Below, in pieces: positions 45,118 through 57,823 of a stretch of 64,000 nucleotides of DNA (the first letter of the stretch is position 1; each line of letters opens with the position of its first letter). The notes beneath the pieces were generated by a model. The model made no database searches and had not been told where the DNA came from. It saw only the letters and a list, made by a program, of their open reading frames with translations. The DNA is from Sphingomonadaceae bacterium (lineage in GTDB: Bacteria > Pseudomonadota > Alphaproteobacteria > Sphingomonadales > Sphingomonadaceae). The stretch lies in assembly GCA_947476425.1 (NCBI GenBank), contig CANJQJ010000004.1, positions 1 to 64,000 of the forward strand. The letters are read 5' to 3'. A program made the position numbers and the translations under genes.

Positions 45118-46005
45118 CTAAATTGCCTCGCCGGTCAGCCGCTGGCAGATCATGTCGAGCTGCTCCAGCGTCGAATAATTGAGCGTCACGCTGCCGCCCC
45201 CGGGTCCATGCCGGATCTGCACATTCAGCCCAAGCAGATCGCCAAGCTGGCGTTCGAGCGCTTCGACGTCGGCATTGCTGCCCTTATATTCCATCTTGCC
45301 CGCCCGCGCCGAAGTCGGCTTGGCAGCGCGCGCCAGTCGTTCAGTTTCGCGAACCGACAAACCTTCCGCCATCACCTTTTCGGCGAGCGCAACCGGATCG
45401 GACGCCGTGATCAATGCGCGCGCATGTCCCATCGATAGACGACCGTCGGCAACAGCCTCTCGAACCGAGGCCGGCAGGTCGAGCAAGCGGATGAGATTGG
45501 CGACATGGCTGCGCGACTTGTGGACAAGCTTCGCCAGTTCCTCCTGGCTATGGCCATAATCCACCGTCAGCCGATGATAGGCCTCCGCCTCTTCAATGGC
45601 GTTGAGATCCTCACGCTGGATATTCTCGACCAGCGCGACTTCGAGCGTTTCCGCCTCGGTAAAATCGCGAACTATTGCTGGAATTTCATGCAGTTGTGCG
45701 CGCTGGGCGGCACGCCAGCGTCGCTCCCCGGCGACGATCTGGAAACCGCCCTCATGCGGACGCACCACGATCGGCTGGATCACGCCGCGAACCCCGATTG
45801 ACTTCGCCAATTCGTCGAGCGCACCCTCGTCGAACCGTCGGCGCGGCTGGCCGGGATGCGGCCGGATCGCCGCAATTGCGATGGTCTGCACGCCTGGCGT
45901 CCGGACGCCGCCGCCGATGGGCTCTTCTGGACCAGCCTCGCCAAGCAGCGCCGAAAGCCCGCGCCCGAGCCCGCTCGGCCGCTTGCGTACCGGATCGTCG
46001 TTCAT
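45118..46005 (-). CDS. parB: Chromosome partitioning protein ParB
   Basis: This CTP-dependent clamp spreads from parS sites and organises the origin for segregation. The 295-residue protein shows an N-terminal GLGRGLSALLGE, the CTPase/nuclease-like GERRWRAAQ motif, a helix-turn-helix with SRSHVANLIRLL, and a C-terminal dimer domain. The start at 46005 has a GAAGGA site; an in-frame ATG twelve codons earlier is possible. parS-like sites lie 1.4-3.6 kb away. Confidence 0.95.
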   Translation of the reverse strand: MNDDPVRKRPSGLGRGLSALLGEAGPEEPIGGGVRTPGVQTIAIAAIRPHPGQPRRRFDEGALDELAKSIGVRGVIQPIVVRPHEGGFQIVAGERRWRAAQRAQLHEIPAIVRDFTEAETLEVALVENIQREDLNAIEEAEAYHRLTVDYGHSQEELAKLVHKSRSHVANLIRLLDLPASVREAVADGRLSMGHARALITASDPVALAEKVMAEGLSVRETERLARAAKPTSARAGKMEYKGSNADVEALERQLGDLLGLNVQIRHGPGGGSVTLNYSTLEQLDMICQRLTGEAI

Positions 46006-46060
46006 CGCTTCAATTCCTTCAGCGCCCATTGCCCCAGCCACTCCCCCGACGTCAGACCCC

Positions 46061-46846
46061 TCACGCCGCCTGTTGCACCGGCTTTGGCAGGCGTCCGATC
46101 AATTCGCGGGCGAGCGCGATATAGGCTTCGGATCCAGGGCAGCGATGATCATAGATAAGCGCGGGCAGACCATGGCTCGGCGCTTCGGAAAGGCGAACAT
46201 TGCGCGGAATGATCGTCTTGAAAACCACATCGCCAAGCACGACGCGAACATCCTGCGCGACCTGTTCCGAGAGTCGATTGCGACGATCATACATCGTCAG
46301 CGCAACCCCGAGGATAGACAATTCAGGATTGAACCGCGCTCGGATCCGCTCGACGGTCTGGAGCAATTGGCTGAGCCCCTCGAGCGCAAAAAATTCGCAC
46401 TGCAAGGGGACGAGCAGCTTGCGCGAGGCGACCAGCGAATTGACCGTCAACAGGCCGAGCGACGGTGGACAATCGATCAGGCAGACATCCCATCGTCCCG
46501 GTGGCGCAGCGTTGAGTGCGGCATCGAGTCGATGGGTACGATTTTCGTAATCGATCAGTTCGATTTCCGCCCCGGACAGATCGACGGTAGCTGCGATGAG
46601 ATCGAGCCTCGGGATACGAGTCGCGATCACGGCTTGGGCAAGCGTGGCATTGCCGGTGAGCACGTCATAGCTCGAAAGATGCCGGTCGTGGCGCGTCACG
46701 CCGAGCCCGGTAGACGCATTGCCCTGAGGATCGAAATCGATCAGCAGGACACGCAAGCCAGTTGCCGCGAGCGCGGTCGCCAGATTGATCGCGGTGGTCG
46801 TCTTGCCGACACCGCCCTTCTGGTTGGCAACCGCGATCCTGATCAT
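46061..46846 (-). CDS. parA: Chromosome partitioning ATPase ParA
   Basis: This Walker-type ATPase partners ParB in origin segregation. The 261-residue protein has KGGVGKTT (10-17), the DFDPQGN box and the DCPPSLGLL box. It overlaps rsmG by ATGA and is 55 bp upstream of parB. Confidence 0.95.
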   Translation of the reverse strand: MIRIAVANQKGGVGKTTTAINLATALAATGLRVLLIDFDPQGNASTGLGVTRHDRHLSSYDVLTGNATLAQAVIATRIPRLDLIAATVDLSGAEIELIDYENRTHRLDAALNAAPPGRWDVCLIDCPPSLGLLTVNSLVASRKLLVPLQCEFFALEGLSQLLQTVERIRARFNPELSILGVALTMYDRRNRLSEQVAQDVRVVLGDVVFKTIIPRNVRLSEAPSHGLPALIYDHRCPGSEAYIALARELIGRLPKPVQQAA

Positions 46847-47475
46847 TGTCGTCTCCTGGGTCGGACATGAGACGCGATGATGATCGCGCCCTCGGGGTCG
46901 GTGATGCTCGGCACCGTGCGGAAATCACCCTGCCATGTTCTCGCTGCGGTATCCAGTTCGGATGCAACACTTCGGCCCTTTGGAAGCAGCCAGAGTGTAT
47001 TCCTGTCGGCCAGGTGATGCGCCACCCCGAAAAGTCGATCGAGCGGTGCAAATGCGCGGGCGGAAATTACCGAATGTGCCCGGATCGGGAGCTGCTCAAC
47101 CTTGGCCTTGACCACCGACACACGATCGCCAAGACCCAACAGCGCAACCATCGTTTCAAGATGTTCCGCACGTTTCGTTCGCACTTCGACCAAGGTCACC
47201 GGCCGATTCGTGAGCAGCGCGATCACCAATCCCGGAAACCCAGCGCCGCTCCCCAGGTCGATCCAGTCCCCGGGGTGATCAGTCGCAAGCGGGAGTAGCT
47301 GTGCGGAATCGAGAATATGCCGGTTCCAAAAATCCTCGATCGTCGAGCGGGCGATCAAATTCTGGCCGTCGTTCGCCGCAATCGTGGCGGCCTCCAGTTT
47401 GGAGAGCATGGCGACTGTTTCACGTGGAACAGACAATATTCGCTCCAACCATGCTTCGACTTCGCTTCGCGTCAT
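46843..47475 (-). CDS. rsmG: 16S rRNA (guanine-N7) methyltransferase RsmG
   Basis: The product methylates G527 of 16S rRNA. The 210-residue protein has the SAM site [10 protein letters not shown] and NRHILDS near residue 50. The ATG at 47475 overlaps the mnmG stop as ATGA. A parS-like palindrome lies in the codons for VPRET near the start. Confidence 0.93.
47416..47431. promoter_or_regulatory. parS-like ParB-binding site 1 (inside rsmG)
   Basis: TGTTTCACGTGGAACA differs from the bacterial parS consensus TGTTTCACGTGAAACA at one position. It is embedded in coding sequence and lies 0.6 kb from parA. Confidence 0.85.
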
Positions 47476-49274
47476 GCCGCCATGCGCCGGCATCGAACGA
47501 GAATCGCAGCCAATGCGGCAGGCGTTACCCCGCGCACCCGCCCTGCCGCGCCAAGCGAAGTAGGCCGCGCTGCCTCGAGCCTTTCGATCATCTCATTCGA
47601 TAGACCGCCTATCAGGCGATAATCCAGATCGTCGGGAATAAGGACAACCTCGTCCGATCGCATCCGCAAGACCTCGCGCTGCTGTCTTTCGACATAGGGG
47701 GCATAGCGTCCATCATTGACCAGCTCGTCGAGCACGTCCGACGAAATATTGCGAAGCAGCGGCTGATGCTCAAACAACTCGGGGAGTGCGAAATCGGGGA
47801 AGCACAGGGATTCAAACAGGGACCGCTTTCCCTGCTTCGCATCAAGCAGCTTACGCGCTTCGCACCGTTCCGTTTCACGTGAAACAAATGCTGCCTCACG
47901 CTCAACCCCGACTACACCGATTGCCATCGCCTTGGCCGTCAGCCGGGACTGCGCATTATCCGCTCGCAATCTGAGTCGATATTCCGCGCGCGCAGTCAGC
48001 ATTCGATAAGGCTCGGTGACGCCATGCAGTGTGAGGTCATCGACCATCACCCCGATATAGCTTTCTGCCCGATCGAAGAGCACAGGTGCAGAGCCCAATG
48101 CGAAGGCAGCGGCATTGAGGCCCGCTACGAGGCCCTGCGCCGCGGCTTCCTCATATCCAGTGGTGCCATTGATCTGCCCGGCACAGAAGACGCCCGGAAA
48201 ATCCCGCAAGCCCAACGAAGGGCCAAGCGCGCGCGGGTCGATATGGTCATACTCGACCGCGTAGCCTTGCTGCACGATTTGGGCACGCTCCAGTCCCGCA
48301 ATCGAGGCGACGATCTGCTGCTGGACGTCAAGCGGCAACGAGGTCGAAATTCCGTTGGGATAGACGATATGATCATCGAGGCCCTCGGGCTCGAGGAAAA
48401 TCTGGTGCCCTTCCCGGTCTCCAAATCGAACGACCTTGTCTTCGATCGACGGGCAGTAGCGTGGACCGGCGCCTTCGATGGCGCCTGCGAACAGCGGCGA
48501 TCGATAAAGATTGTCTCGAATAACCTGATGCGTCTCGAGATTCGTCCGCGTGATCCCGCAAGCAACCTGCGGACAGCTTCTGCCGTGCGACTGGGATGAG
48601 AATGTCCATTCTTCGCCATCCGAAGGCTGGATTTCGACCCGCGCCCAATCGATGGTCCGACCGTCCAGGCGAGGTGGTGTTCCTGTCTTGAGTCGGCCCA
48701 TCGGGAGGTCGAGGGCGCGAAGTTGCGCGGCCATGCCAATCGACGGTGCCTCGTCCACCCTACCGCCGGCCTTCGCATCCATTCCGAAATGCAGCTTGCC
48801 GTTGAGAAAAGTGCCGGTAGCAATCACGACGGCGTCACAAGCCAGTGCCCGGCCATCGCCCAGAACGACGCCAGCGACGTTCCCCCCGTCGATCCGAAAC
48901 GAAAACGCCTCGCCTTCGACGATCTCGAGATTCTCCTGCCCTGTCAGTCCCGCCTGTATTGCAGCGCGGTATCGACGTCGGTCCGCCTGTACGCGCGGTC
49001 CTTGGACAGCGGCACCCTTTGAACCATTGAGCATGCGATAGTGAATCGCGGCTGCGTCGGCCGCGCGCGCCATCAAGCCGTCAAATGCATCGATCTCGCG
49101 AACGAGATGTCCCTTGCCTAGCCCACCGATCGCCGGATTGCAGGACATCGCTCCGATCTGGTCACGCCGTATCGTGAGCAGCGCGACCTTGGCACCCATG
49201 CGCGCAGCCGCTGCAGCGGCCTCGCTCCCGGCGTGACCGCCGCCGACAATGATGACATCAAAGGATCGGGACAT
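47472..49274 (-). CDS. mnmG: tRNA uridine-5-carboxymethylaminomethyl modification enzyme MnmG
   Basis: The FAD protein acts with MnmE to install cmnm5U34 in tRNA. The 600-residue protein has [14 protein letters not shown] at the FAD site and [12 protein letters not shown] downstream. The start at 49274 begins the conserved N-terminus. A parS-like site lies within it. Confidence 0.95.
47871..47886. promoter_or_regulatory. parS-like ParB-binding site 2 (inside mnmG)
   Basis: CGTTTCACGTGAAACA matches the parS consensus in 15 of 16 bases, with a perfect 14-base palindromic core. It encodes VSRET in mnmG. Confidence 0.9.
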
Positions 49275-49329: not shown

Positions 49330-50616
49330 TCATTTTCCGATGCAGAACCGGCTGAATATGGCATCGAGGAGTGGTTCGACGCCGCCTTGCCCGGTCAATC
49401 GGTCGAGCGCAGCACGCGCGCCCCTGAGCGATTCGGCCACAAGCAATATGTCGGGCGCACCCTCGGCGAGCTTCAGCGAATCGGCGCAATCCGCCAATGC
49501 CTCGCGCTGTCGCTGGACCAACGCAATCTCGCCTTCGCGCGGCAACAGCGATGTTCCACGTGAAACAAGCAGTGAGACCAGTGCCTCCATTCCCGTCCCC
49601 CCGGTCGCGGAAACCGCGAGGTCGGCGCCGACGGGCAATCCCTCCCTCCCCGGCAGATCGCAACGTGGATGGACATGTAACGCACCTCCTGGTGCTGTCC
49701 CCACCTCTCCCAACCAGATCACGATATCCGCGCTGTCGAGCGCTTGCTGAGCGCGATCGACGCCGATCCGCTCTATAAAATCCTCGGTTTCCCTCAGCCC
49801 CGCAGTATCGATGAAGATGAACGCCATTCCGGAAATCTGAACCGGAAATTCGATCAGGTCTCGAGTCGTCCCAGGAATCGGCGTGGCGATCGCAGCCTCT
49901 CGACCAACAAGTCCATTGAACAACGTCGATTTACCGGCGTTAGGCGGTCCGCCGATCGCAACGCGAATGCCATCCCGCAATCGCTCTGCCGGAGGAACGC
50001 GCAGCATCGCTTCGATCTCGTCGAGCAGCGGCGCAATCACTGCGCCCGCACCACCGTCGTCCTCGGGGACATCATCCTCATCGGCGAAGTCGATTCGTGC
50101 CTCGATCGCCGCCGCCGCGTCGATCAGCGCCGCTCGCCATCGCCGGACCGCGCGCGACAAGGTTCCTTCGGCGAGTGCCATGGCATTTCGCCGCTGGCCT
50201 TCCGTCTCGGCGGTCAGCAGGTCGCCCAGTCCCTCCGCTTCGGCGAGATCGAGCCGGCCATTGGCAAAAGCGCGCCTCGTAAACTCTCCCGGTTCGGCGC
50301 GACGCAGCCCCGGGAGTGCCGCCAGCGCCGCTTCGACCGCAGCGACCACCGCCCGGCCGCCGTGCAAATGCAGCTCGACAAGATCCTCACCCGTCACGCT
50401 GTTGGGACCCGGAAAAAACAGCACCAGCACGCGATCGAGCACCGGATCACGACCCAGCGTCATCAATGTCGCGATACGCGGCTCCGGGACGCGTCCCGCC
50501 AGTTCCTGCAGGCTTTCCACCGCGGCGATCCCACTCACGCGCACGATCGCGATCGCCGCCGGCGGTTGCCCCGACGACAGTGCGAAGATCGTCTCCTGCG
50601 TCGGCACCAGCTTCAC
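49330..50616 (-). CDS. mnmE: tRNA modification GTPase MnmE
   Basis: The product is a potassium-activated GTPase, partner of MnmG. The 428-residue protein has an N-terminal formyl-THF-binding domain, Walker [20 protein letters not shown] in the G3 loop, and the C-terminal FCIGK with the conserved Cys. A parS-like site lies in its coding sequence. The DUF6489 gene is just upstream in the same direction. Confidence 0.95.
49552..49567. promoter_or_regulatory. parS-like ParB-binding site 3 (inside mnmE)
   Basis: TGTTCCACGTGAAACA differs from the consensus at one base, and its core CCACGTGAAAC is intact. It encodes VSRGT. Confidence 0.85.
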
Positions 50617-55647: not shown

Positions 55648-56709
55648 CTATCGGGCCCTGATCCGATTCAACACCTGCTCGACATGCGCGATCGGCGTAT
55701 CGAGCTGGATGCCGTGGCCCAGATTGAACACATGCGGGCGTCCGGCGAAAGCCCTCAAAATATGATCGACGGCCTCGTCGAGTTCGCGGCCGCCAGCAAT
55801 CATTGCCAGCGGATCGAGATTGCCCTGCACCGGCATCCCTTCAGGCAGCGACTGATTGGCCCATGACGGATCGACCGTCTCATCGAGCCCGATCGCCTGG
55901 ACCCCGGTTTCGCGAGCATAAGCGAGAAGCTTTCCGCCGGCACCCTTTGGAAAACCGATGATCGGCGTATCGGGATGCAATTTCCGCACGCGATCGACAA
56001 TCGCCACGGTCGGCGCAATCACCCAGCGCTCGAATTGTGCGGGCGAAAGGCTTCCCGACCAGCTGTCGAAAAGCTGTACGGCATCGACCCCGGCCTTGAT
56101 CTGCCCGGAAAGATAATCGACCGTCGCATCGACGATGCCATCGATGATCTCCTGGAAAGCTACCGGATCGCGATACGCCATTCGCCGCGCCTCGGCTTGC
56201 TCTCGGCTGCCCTGGCCCGCCACCATATAGGTCGCCACCGTCCATGGACTTCCCGCAAACCCCAGGAAGGTCACTCCAGGGGGCAAAGCAGCCCGTACCC
56301 TACGCACTGTACCATAGACCGGCTCGAGGCGCTGTGGGACAGCTTCCAGCCCCGCCAGCGCATGGTCCACAAGCGGAGGGGTAAGTCGTGGTCCTTCGCC
56401 CGCTTCGAACCAGAGCTTCTGACCCATCGCAAACGGGATCATCAGGATATCCGAAAACAGGATCGCGCCATCGAATCCGAAGCGGCGAATCGGCTGGAGC
56501 GTTACGTCGGCAGCGGCTTCGCTATCATTGACCAGTTCGAGGAACCCGCCTTTTTCGGCACGAAGCGCCCGATATTCAGGAAGATAGCGCCCGGCCTGTC
56601 GCATGAACCACACCGGTGGCGGATCGCGTCGCTCGCCACGCAGCACGGCGAGCAAGGGTCGGTCTGCGGAAAGCTGATCGGCCGTCTGGCCAACAGTTAA
56701 GGACTCCAT
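55648..56709 (-). CDS. hemE: Uroporphyrinogen decarboxylase
   Basis: The product removes four carboxyls from uroporphyrinogen III. The 353-residue protein has PVWFMRQAGRYLPEYR at the N-terminal signature and GFAGSPWTVATYM. The start at 56709 follows an AT-rich leader that belongs to the putative origin. Confidence 0.95.
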   Translation of the reverse strand: MESLTVGQTADQLSADRPLLAVLRGERRDPPPVWFMRQAGRYLPEYRALRAEKGGFLELVNDSEAAADVTLQPIRRFGFDGAILFSDILMIPFAMGQKLWFEAGEGPRLTPPLVDHALAGLEAVPQRLEPVYGTVRRVRAALPPGVTFLGFAGSPWTVATYMVAGQGSREQAEARRMAYRDPVAFQEIIDGIVDATVDYLSGQIKAGVDAVQLFDSWSGSLSPAQFERWVIAPTVAIVDRVRKLHPDTPIIGFPKGAGGKLLAYARETGVQAIGLDETVDPSWANQSLPEGMPVQGNLDPLAMIAGGRELDEAVDHILRAFAGRPHVFNLGHGIQLDTPIAHVEQVLNRIRAR

Positions 56710-56856
56710 AACAATCCTGAATATAAAGAATGAAAGAGATAGTAGAGAGTAGTAGGGGCGCCGATAGCGGGACTTATTCCCAGATGGGAAAATTGCCAAC
56801 AGCTTGACTCGTCGATGCCTGACGCAGGCCCCGCGAGTCGGGATGATTCCCCCCCG

Positions 56857-56865
56857 TTATCCACA
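56857..56865 (+). promoter_or_regulatory. DnaA box, TTATCCACA
   Basis: This is a perfect match to the high-affinity DnaA consensus, within the hemE-ppsR gap. Confidence 0.88.
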
Positions 56866-56888
56866 GCCGGTGTAGAAAAATAGGCGTC

Positions 56889-56897
56889 TGTGGAAAA
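56889..56897 (-). promoter_or_regulatory. DnaA box, TTTTCCACA (minus strand)
   Basis: It differs by one base from the consensus and is 24 bp from the first box, in the opposite orientation. Confidence 0.75.
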
Positions 56898-56979
56898 TTC
56901 ACGGGATTGAATCCTGCCGTCGGGGGTGAATCATGAGCTTGAATCCCATCCCCGCTATCCGCTAGCGCAATCCCCATGG

Positions 56980-56988
56980 TTTTCCACA
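56980..56988 (+). promoter_or_regulatory. DnaA box, TTTTCCACA
   Basis: It has the same sequence as the second box but lies on the plus strand, ten bases before the ppsR start codon, so DnaA bound here could also affect ppsR expression. Confidence 0.75.
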
Positions 56989-56998
56989 GGCTTTGCCG

Positions 56999-57823
56999 AT
57001 GATCCGCCTTCACCTTCATCTGCTGTCGGATTCGACTGGGGAAACGCTTGAGAATATCGCGAAGGCGAGCCTCGTCCAGTTCGATGGCGTCGAGACGATC
57101 AAGCATTTCTGGCCGATGGTGCGTTCCGAAGGCCATCTTGATCGCATACTCACCGAAATCGCCCAGAAGCCCGGGCTGGTATTGTTTACGATCGTCAATG
57201 TCGAGGTGCGTCGCAAGCTCGAGTCGCGCTGTCATGCGCTTGGGCTTCCTGCCGTGGCTGCACTTGATCCGGTCATCGATGCCCTGTCGCGAATGCTTGG
57301 CCAGGAAGCGAAAGCCCGCCCCGGCCGCCAACATATTCTGGATGAAGCCTATTTCAGGCGAGTCGAGGCGATCGGCTATACCATCGCCCACGACGATGGC
57401 ATCGGCGGTGAGGATTGGGAAGAAGCCGACATCATCCTGCTTGGCGTATCGCGTTCGTCGAAGACGCCGACCTCGATCTACCTTGCCAATCGCGGTTACA
57501 AGGTCGCCAACGTGCCGCTGGTGATGGAAGCGCCGCCACCGCAATCGCTCTACCAACTGCGTCATCCCGTGGTCGTCGGGCTTACCGCGAGCCCCGAACG
57601 GTTGGTACAGGTGCGCCGCAATCGCCTGTTGGCGCTCAACCAGTCGCCTGAGACACCCTATGTCGACCAGAATGTCGTCAGCGCGGAAATAGCTTTTGCG
57701 CGTCGCATTTTTTCCGATCGCGGCTGGCCGGTGATCGATGTCACCCGTCGCTCGATCGAGGAAACCGCGGCCGCAGTTATAAATCTCTATAATGCACGCA
57801 ATCCGTCCGAGGCGGAGTCATGA
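56999..57823 (+). CDS. Pyruvate, phosphate dikinase regulatory protein (PpsR/DUF299)
   Basis: This bifunctional kinase/pyrophosphorylase reversibly phosphorylates a Thr of PPDK or PEP synthetase. The 274-residue protein has HLLSDSTGETLENIAKA at the start and the phosphate-binding GVSRSSKTPTSIYLA near 150. ATG at 56999 is preferred to an in-frame TTG two codons earlier. It overlaps maf by ATGA. Confidence 0.92.
   Translation: MIRLHLHLLSDSTGETLENIAKASLVQFDGVETIKHFWPMVRSEGHLDRILTEIAQKPGLVLFTIVNVEVRRKLESRCHALGLPAVAALDPVIDALSRMLGQEAKARPGRQHILDEAYFRRVEAIGYTIAHDDGIGGEDWEEADIILLGVSRSSKTPTSIYLANRGYKVANVPLVMEAPPPQSLYQLRHPVVVGLTASPERLVQVRRNRLLALNQSPETPYVDQNVVSAEIAFARRIFSDRGWPVIDVTRRSIEETAAAVINLYNARNPSEAES

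Follow-up and report, generated by a model that had tools for sequence, protein, structure and literature searches.

The hemE–ppsR gap and its surroundings

The window analysed here is a stretch of 64,000 nucleotides of a Sphingomonadaceae genome. In it, the divergently oriented hemE and ppsR genes flank a gap of 289 bp (56710–56998), where the original prediction had placed the chromosomal origin of replication. The minus strand to the left of the gap carries rho, a hemJ-like gene, mnmE, mnmG, rsmG, parA and parB, and the plus strand to the right carries maf, aroE, coaE, a dnaQ-like gene and the genes that follow it. The switch in gene orientation described at the gap was thus borne out for the divergent hemE and ppsR and for the plus-strand genes on the right, while the statement that the genes on the left lie on the minus strand holds for the majority only, since three plus-strand genes at 50.9–53.1 kb break up this set. 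A 263-residue open reading frame that crosses the gap on the minus strand (56774–57565) overlaps ppsR and was taken as spurious. The genes and partition sites used below are:

45118–46041, minus strand: parB, chromosome partition (TIGR00180, 192 bits)
46061–46846, minus strand: parA, chromosome partition (ParA-family matches below the equivalog cut-offs)
47416–47431, plus strand: parS site TGTTTCACGTGGAACA
47871–47886, plus strand: parS site with one mismatch
49552–49567, plus strand: parS site TGTTCCACGTGAAACA
55648–56709, minus strand: hemE, uroporphyrinogen decarboxylase, start at 56709 (TIGR01464, 387 bits, above the cut-off)
56999–57823, plus strand: ppsR (DUF299/COG1806, PEP synthase/PPDK regulator), start at 56999 (NF003742, 327 bits, above the cut-off)

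Three parS matches were found in the window, compared to 0.02 expected. Together with parAB, they are located 7–12 kb from the gap.

The divergent hemE/ppsR pair was found around 103 distinct sphingomonad gaps and at 46 of 49 further loci, a set that includes one sphingomonad and otherwise consists of families elsewhere in the order or class.

DnaA boxes and GANTC sites

The gap contains three DnaA boxes of the TTWTNCACA type, two weaker boxes and a cluster of GANTC (CcrM) sites:

56774–56782, plus strand: weak DnaA box TTATTCCCA, which reads TTATTCACA in several relatives
56806, 56835, 56845, 56909, 56928 and 56941 (span 56806–56945), no strand assigned: six GANTC sites, the densest cluster on the contig
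56857–56865, plus strand: perfect DnaA box TTATCCACA, TTWTNCACA type
56871–56879, minus strand: weak DnaA box TTTTCTACA
56889–56897, minus strand: DnaA box TTTTCCACA, TTWTNCACA type
56980–56988, plus strand: DnaA box TTTTCCACA on the ppsR side, TTWTNCACA type

The three boxes, one of them perfect, had been pointed out previously and are real: the gap holds three sites that differ from TTATCCACA at one position at most, whereas its shuffled sequence gave a mean of 0.05 and did not reach three in any of 500 shuffles. There are 33 TTWTNCACA sites in the 2.81-Mb assembly, among which these are the only three this close together, and the 112-kb contig has no such box outside the gap. A better DnaA-box cluster elsewhere, which the original prediction had named as evidence against itself, was looked for in the 2.81-Mb assembly and none was found. 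The runner-up in this genome is a pair consisting of TTATCCACA and TTTTCCACA, 109 bp apart (L120, G000:C17:36803 and 36912). It sits about 170–280 bp upstream of mraZ and a division/cell-wall cluster, and possibly reflects DnaA control of that cluster.

In the 103 sphingomonad gaps, 138 TTWTNCACA sites were found, where 1.25 were expected, and 28 gaps had none. Two complete relatives, G026 and G034, have no canonical DnaA box in the gap and only scattered single or paired boxes elsewhere; their gaps carry box variants such as CTTTCCACA, ATATCCACA and TTACCCACA. The skew-supported origins of these genomes (G026:C1, about 966000, and G034:C1, about 331600) would be missed by box counting.

GANTC is generally rare in the window, with 189 sites compared to 381 expected, or half, yet six sites lie within 140 bp of the gap. 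In the gaps of relatives, GANTC density was 7.3-fold that of the 20-kb surroundings, compared to 0.4 to 4.0 for control pentamers, and the densest 300-bp window for GANTC fell in the gap at 54 of 61 loci. GANTC sites are known from the Caulobacter origin, and intergenic regions are generally more than 1.5-fold over-represented in them (PMC3973325); the sevenfold enrichment of the gap exceeds this usual intergenic bias. AGNCT was fourfold enriched in sphingomonad gaps L038–L116, apparently owing to a ACAGGCTGTGGA / ACAGCCTGT motif that recurs there and joins two facing DnaA-box ends. The genome itself encodes GcrA and a RAMA-domain methylase resembling CcrM. Two features of a CcrM-methylated origin, a GANTC cluster and a CcrM homologue, are therefore present, and methylation of the sites is predicted from the sequence; conservation of the cluster suggests that it may have a role through this methylation.

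CtrA sites (TTAA-N7-TTAA) are absent from the gap, and only four were found in the sphingomonad gaps, in two of the 103. Such sites are typical of hemE-type origins rather than defining, and are also missing from some accepted or predicted ones (PMC1914354). The gap has no match to the IHF consensus WATCAANNNNTTR.

The A+T-rich stretch and the candidate unwinding module

The hemE side of the gap contains the following features:

56708–56748, no strand assigned: A+T-rich stretch, putative DNA unwinding element (by A+T content)
56747–56755, plus strand: candidate DnaA-trio run, 3'-GAT GAT GAG-5' (minus strand CTACTACTC); strand-specific C-N-A runs occupy the same place across alphaproteobacteria
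56759–56776, minus strand: degenerate tandem DnaA-box pair, TAAGTCCCG then CTATCGGCG, from comparison of the 103 and 46 gaps
56793–56810, plus strand: conserved element TTGCCAACAGCTTGACTC, its core present in 68 of 103 sphingomonad gaps

The A+T-rich stretch had also been noted before, and it proved to be the maximum of the 112-kb contig, with 77% A+T over the 30 bp from 56708. The tandem boxes next to it have counterparts in relatives (TAAACCCCG and TTTCCACGC) and in other alphaproteobacteria (TAATCCCC and TTCACAGG). Read toward hemE on the minus strand, many alphaproteobacterial gaps present the same order: TAATCCCC is followed about ten bases later by TTCACAGG, and a short spacer then separates this pair from successive C-N-A triplets, beyond which the DNA is A+T-rich. 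This order resembles the basal unwinding system (BUS) of Bacillus subtilis and others, in which tandem boxes, a short spacer and a trinucleotide run likewise lead into A+T-rich DNA. A BUS is defined by three or more N-A-N trios on the same strand, no farther than 16 bp from a DnaA box, and by the conserved adenine in the middle of the trios (PMC6669920, PMC8287927).

The strict trio pattern, [CT]T[AT] three times in a row, was present in 11 of 103 sphingomonad gaps (1.9% in shuffles) and in 15 of 46 further gaps (19.6% in shuffles). Because this enrichment was only mild, we tried the C-N-A pattern. Of the 46 further gaps, 22 had at least three consecutive C[ACT]A triplets on the minus strand, compared to 2.0 in shuffles, and none had them on the opposite strand; at least four were found on the minus strand in 14 of 46, compared to 0.1. 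These counts are descriptive, since the pattern was picked after inspection of the sequences, with the opposite strand and the shuffles as controls. Whereas in the BUS the middle position is a single base, the partner of the adenine conserved on the bound strand, the top-strand middle base in the alphaproteobacterial gaps is A, C or T (30, 27 and 34 occurrences, respectively) and never G.

In the genome described here, the module is degenerate. The box beside the trios, clear in many relatives, matches only five of the nine bases of TTATCCACA, and the run is the minimum of three trios, all of which have a middle adenine, unlike the mixture of A, C and T across the class. A role of the module in unwinding is suggested by its conservation, which we regard as a lead and not as proof.

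Farther from hemE, GCCAACAG is separated from the module by a constant distance in 68 of the 103 sphingomonad gaps, mostly as TTGCCAACAGCTTGAC, followed by TC in many. The genome has a single copy of the 14-base pattern GCCAACAGNTTGAC, at 56795. This pattern was considered as a class-wide mark of origins and rejected, as it is confined to part of the Sphingomonadaceae.

Assignment of the origin

The cumulative GC skew of the contig falls steeply to about 57 kb and keeps falling, at a lower rate, as far as the contig end, with no turn. GC and keto skew, both still dropping at that point, are therefore weak locators in this draft contig. The skew check that accompanied the original prediction gave no turn at the gap itself on this contig. 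At the orthologous gap in two complete relatives, the sign changes from negative on the hemE side to mostly positive on the ppsR side: from −0.0147 to +0.0029 in G026 and from −0.0230 to +0.0102 in G034, sampled with 20-kb stretches, so that the position has a resolution of about 20 kb only. The immediate flanks of the gap also differ in sign in G032 and G011, while the near-complete G027 has no clear signal. Beyond about +5 kb (≈62 kb), the contig shows no collinearity with the DNA within 60–120 kb of the origins of G011, G032 and G021, and a rearrangement may thus blur its skew. From about 62000 in the window to the end of contig C4 at 112307, the skew is negative; this DNA is possibly an inversion or a lineage-specific rearrangement.

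A hemE-side origin has been placed experimentally in Caulobacter (PMC1914354). The Cori of Caulobacter crescentus (hemE / CC0001, COG1806) has the same flanking genes in the same orientation, DnaA boxes, an A+T-rich stretch, GANTC sites and parS in the origin region (PMC1914354, PMC3973325, PMC6399470); compared to it, the present gap lacks TTAA-N7-TTAA CtrA sites and an IHF-consensus match, and is only 289 bp long. A hemE-side origin has been predicted for most Sphingomonadaceae (PMC4741004). The oriC predicted near hemE for Sphingopyxis and other members of this family (DoriC) shares the place, the DnaA boxes and the DUE with ours; PMC4741004 reports boxes and a DUE, with no mention of GANTC or CtrA in its main text. 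The placement of the origin is thus already predicted for the family and expected. What is new are the details: a module with a free middle base, the sevenfold GANTC enrichment, the fixed TTGCCAACAGCTTGACTC and the box-less origins in complete relatives.

Gene context, the box cluster, the A+T-rich stretch, parS and parAB, the conservation seen among over 100 relatives and the skew change in two complete relatives strongly support the location of the origin at the hemE–ppsR gap, and we infer that 56710–56998 is almost certainly the chromosomal origin of replication of this genome. We considered whether the gap could be merely a regulatory region shared by hemE and ppsR, with boxes that serve DnaA as a transcription factor and an origin located elsewhere, for example at dnaA. 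The gap must indeed contain the promoters of both genes, a minus-strand TTGGCA-N17-TAAGTC with a spacing fixed in relatives resembles a hemE promoter, and the skew of the contig does not turn. However, dnaA is found on contig C8, which has no TTWTNCACA site, the skew turns at the gap in both complete relatives, parS sites cluster nearby, and the equivalent gap is the experimentally mapped Caulobacter origin (PMC1914354); we consider such an arrangement very improbable. Slighter still are the chances of an origin in the neighbourhood but outside the gap, such as one located between the parS sites (47–50 kb) or in another nearby gap. The skew of the sampled relatives, with its resolution of about 20 kb, would accommodate it, but TTWTNCACA boxes are confined to the gap within this contig, which has no equally A+T-rich 30 bp elsewhere, and it is the hemE–ppsR gap that carries the conserved module across the class.

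With the origin in the gap, DnaA would bind to the boxes at 56857, 56889 and 56980 and nucleate a filament, which would be carried toward hemE over weaker sites at 56774 and 56793 (TTGCCAACA) and the degenerate pair at 56759–56776. DnaA would then engage one strand of the trinucleotide run (56747–56755), leading to melting of the A+T-rich DNA (56708–56748), where helicase would be loaded and two forks would depart in opposite directions. ParABS at 45–50 kb would segregate the new origins. The six GANTC sites, methylated by the encoded CcrM homologue, would become hemimethylated upon replication, which may couple initiation, or transcription nearby, to the cell cycle.

The place of TTGCCAACAGCTTGACTC in this mechanism is evenly balanced. 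The element may be a weak, oriC-specific DnaA box (TTGCCAACA), or it may provide the −35 of a hemE promoter (minus strand TTGGCA-N17-TAAGTC), with transcription crossing the A+T-rich DNA. Transcription toward hemE matters at the Caulobacter origin, and TTGGCA-N17-TAA[AG]C keeps its spacing in relatives. The strongly conserved CCCCG after TAAAC, on the other hand, is no promoter feature and aligns with the TAATCCCC boxes of other alphaproteobacteria; TTGCCAACAG shares seven of ten bases with TTATCCACAG, and its distance to the unwinding module is fixed. In the direction of ppsR, no conserved −10 was found downstream of TTGACT.

We tentatively suggest, at somewhat less than even odds, that the hemE-type origins of alphaproteobacteria have a common module, TAATCCCC-N10-TTCACAGG-spacer-(C-H-A)n-A+T-rich DNA, in which three middle bases are tolerated and DnaA reads a relaxed trio (3'-GDT-5'), and that sphingomonads add TTGCCAACAGCTTGACTC and a dense cluster of CcrM sites in place of CtrA sites, some of them without a canonical DnaA box. 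This comparative anatomy defines, in testable form and for the whole class, which DNA is the first to open in alphaproteobacterial chromosomes. It suggests that the DnaA-trio rule may be looser in alphaproteobacteria than stated, and that the cell cycle more probably acts on sphingomonad origins through CcrM methylation than through CtrA binding.

Two further elements were observed in the gaps. One is a palindrome on the ppsR side:

56960–56967, no strand assigned: palindrome CGCTAGCG; CGCTAGC in 46 of 75 box-bearing gaps

It is conserved in sphingomonad gaps, often as GCGCTAGCGC or TTGCGCTAGCG. The other is a second, inverted CCAACAG element (GGAGTCTGTTGG) in the gaps of L074, L076, L085, L088 and L097, located 47 bp from the first, so that the two copies form an inverted pair around a CGGGGCTTA motif.
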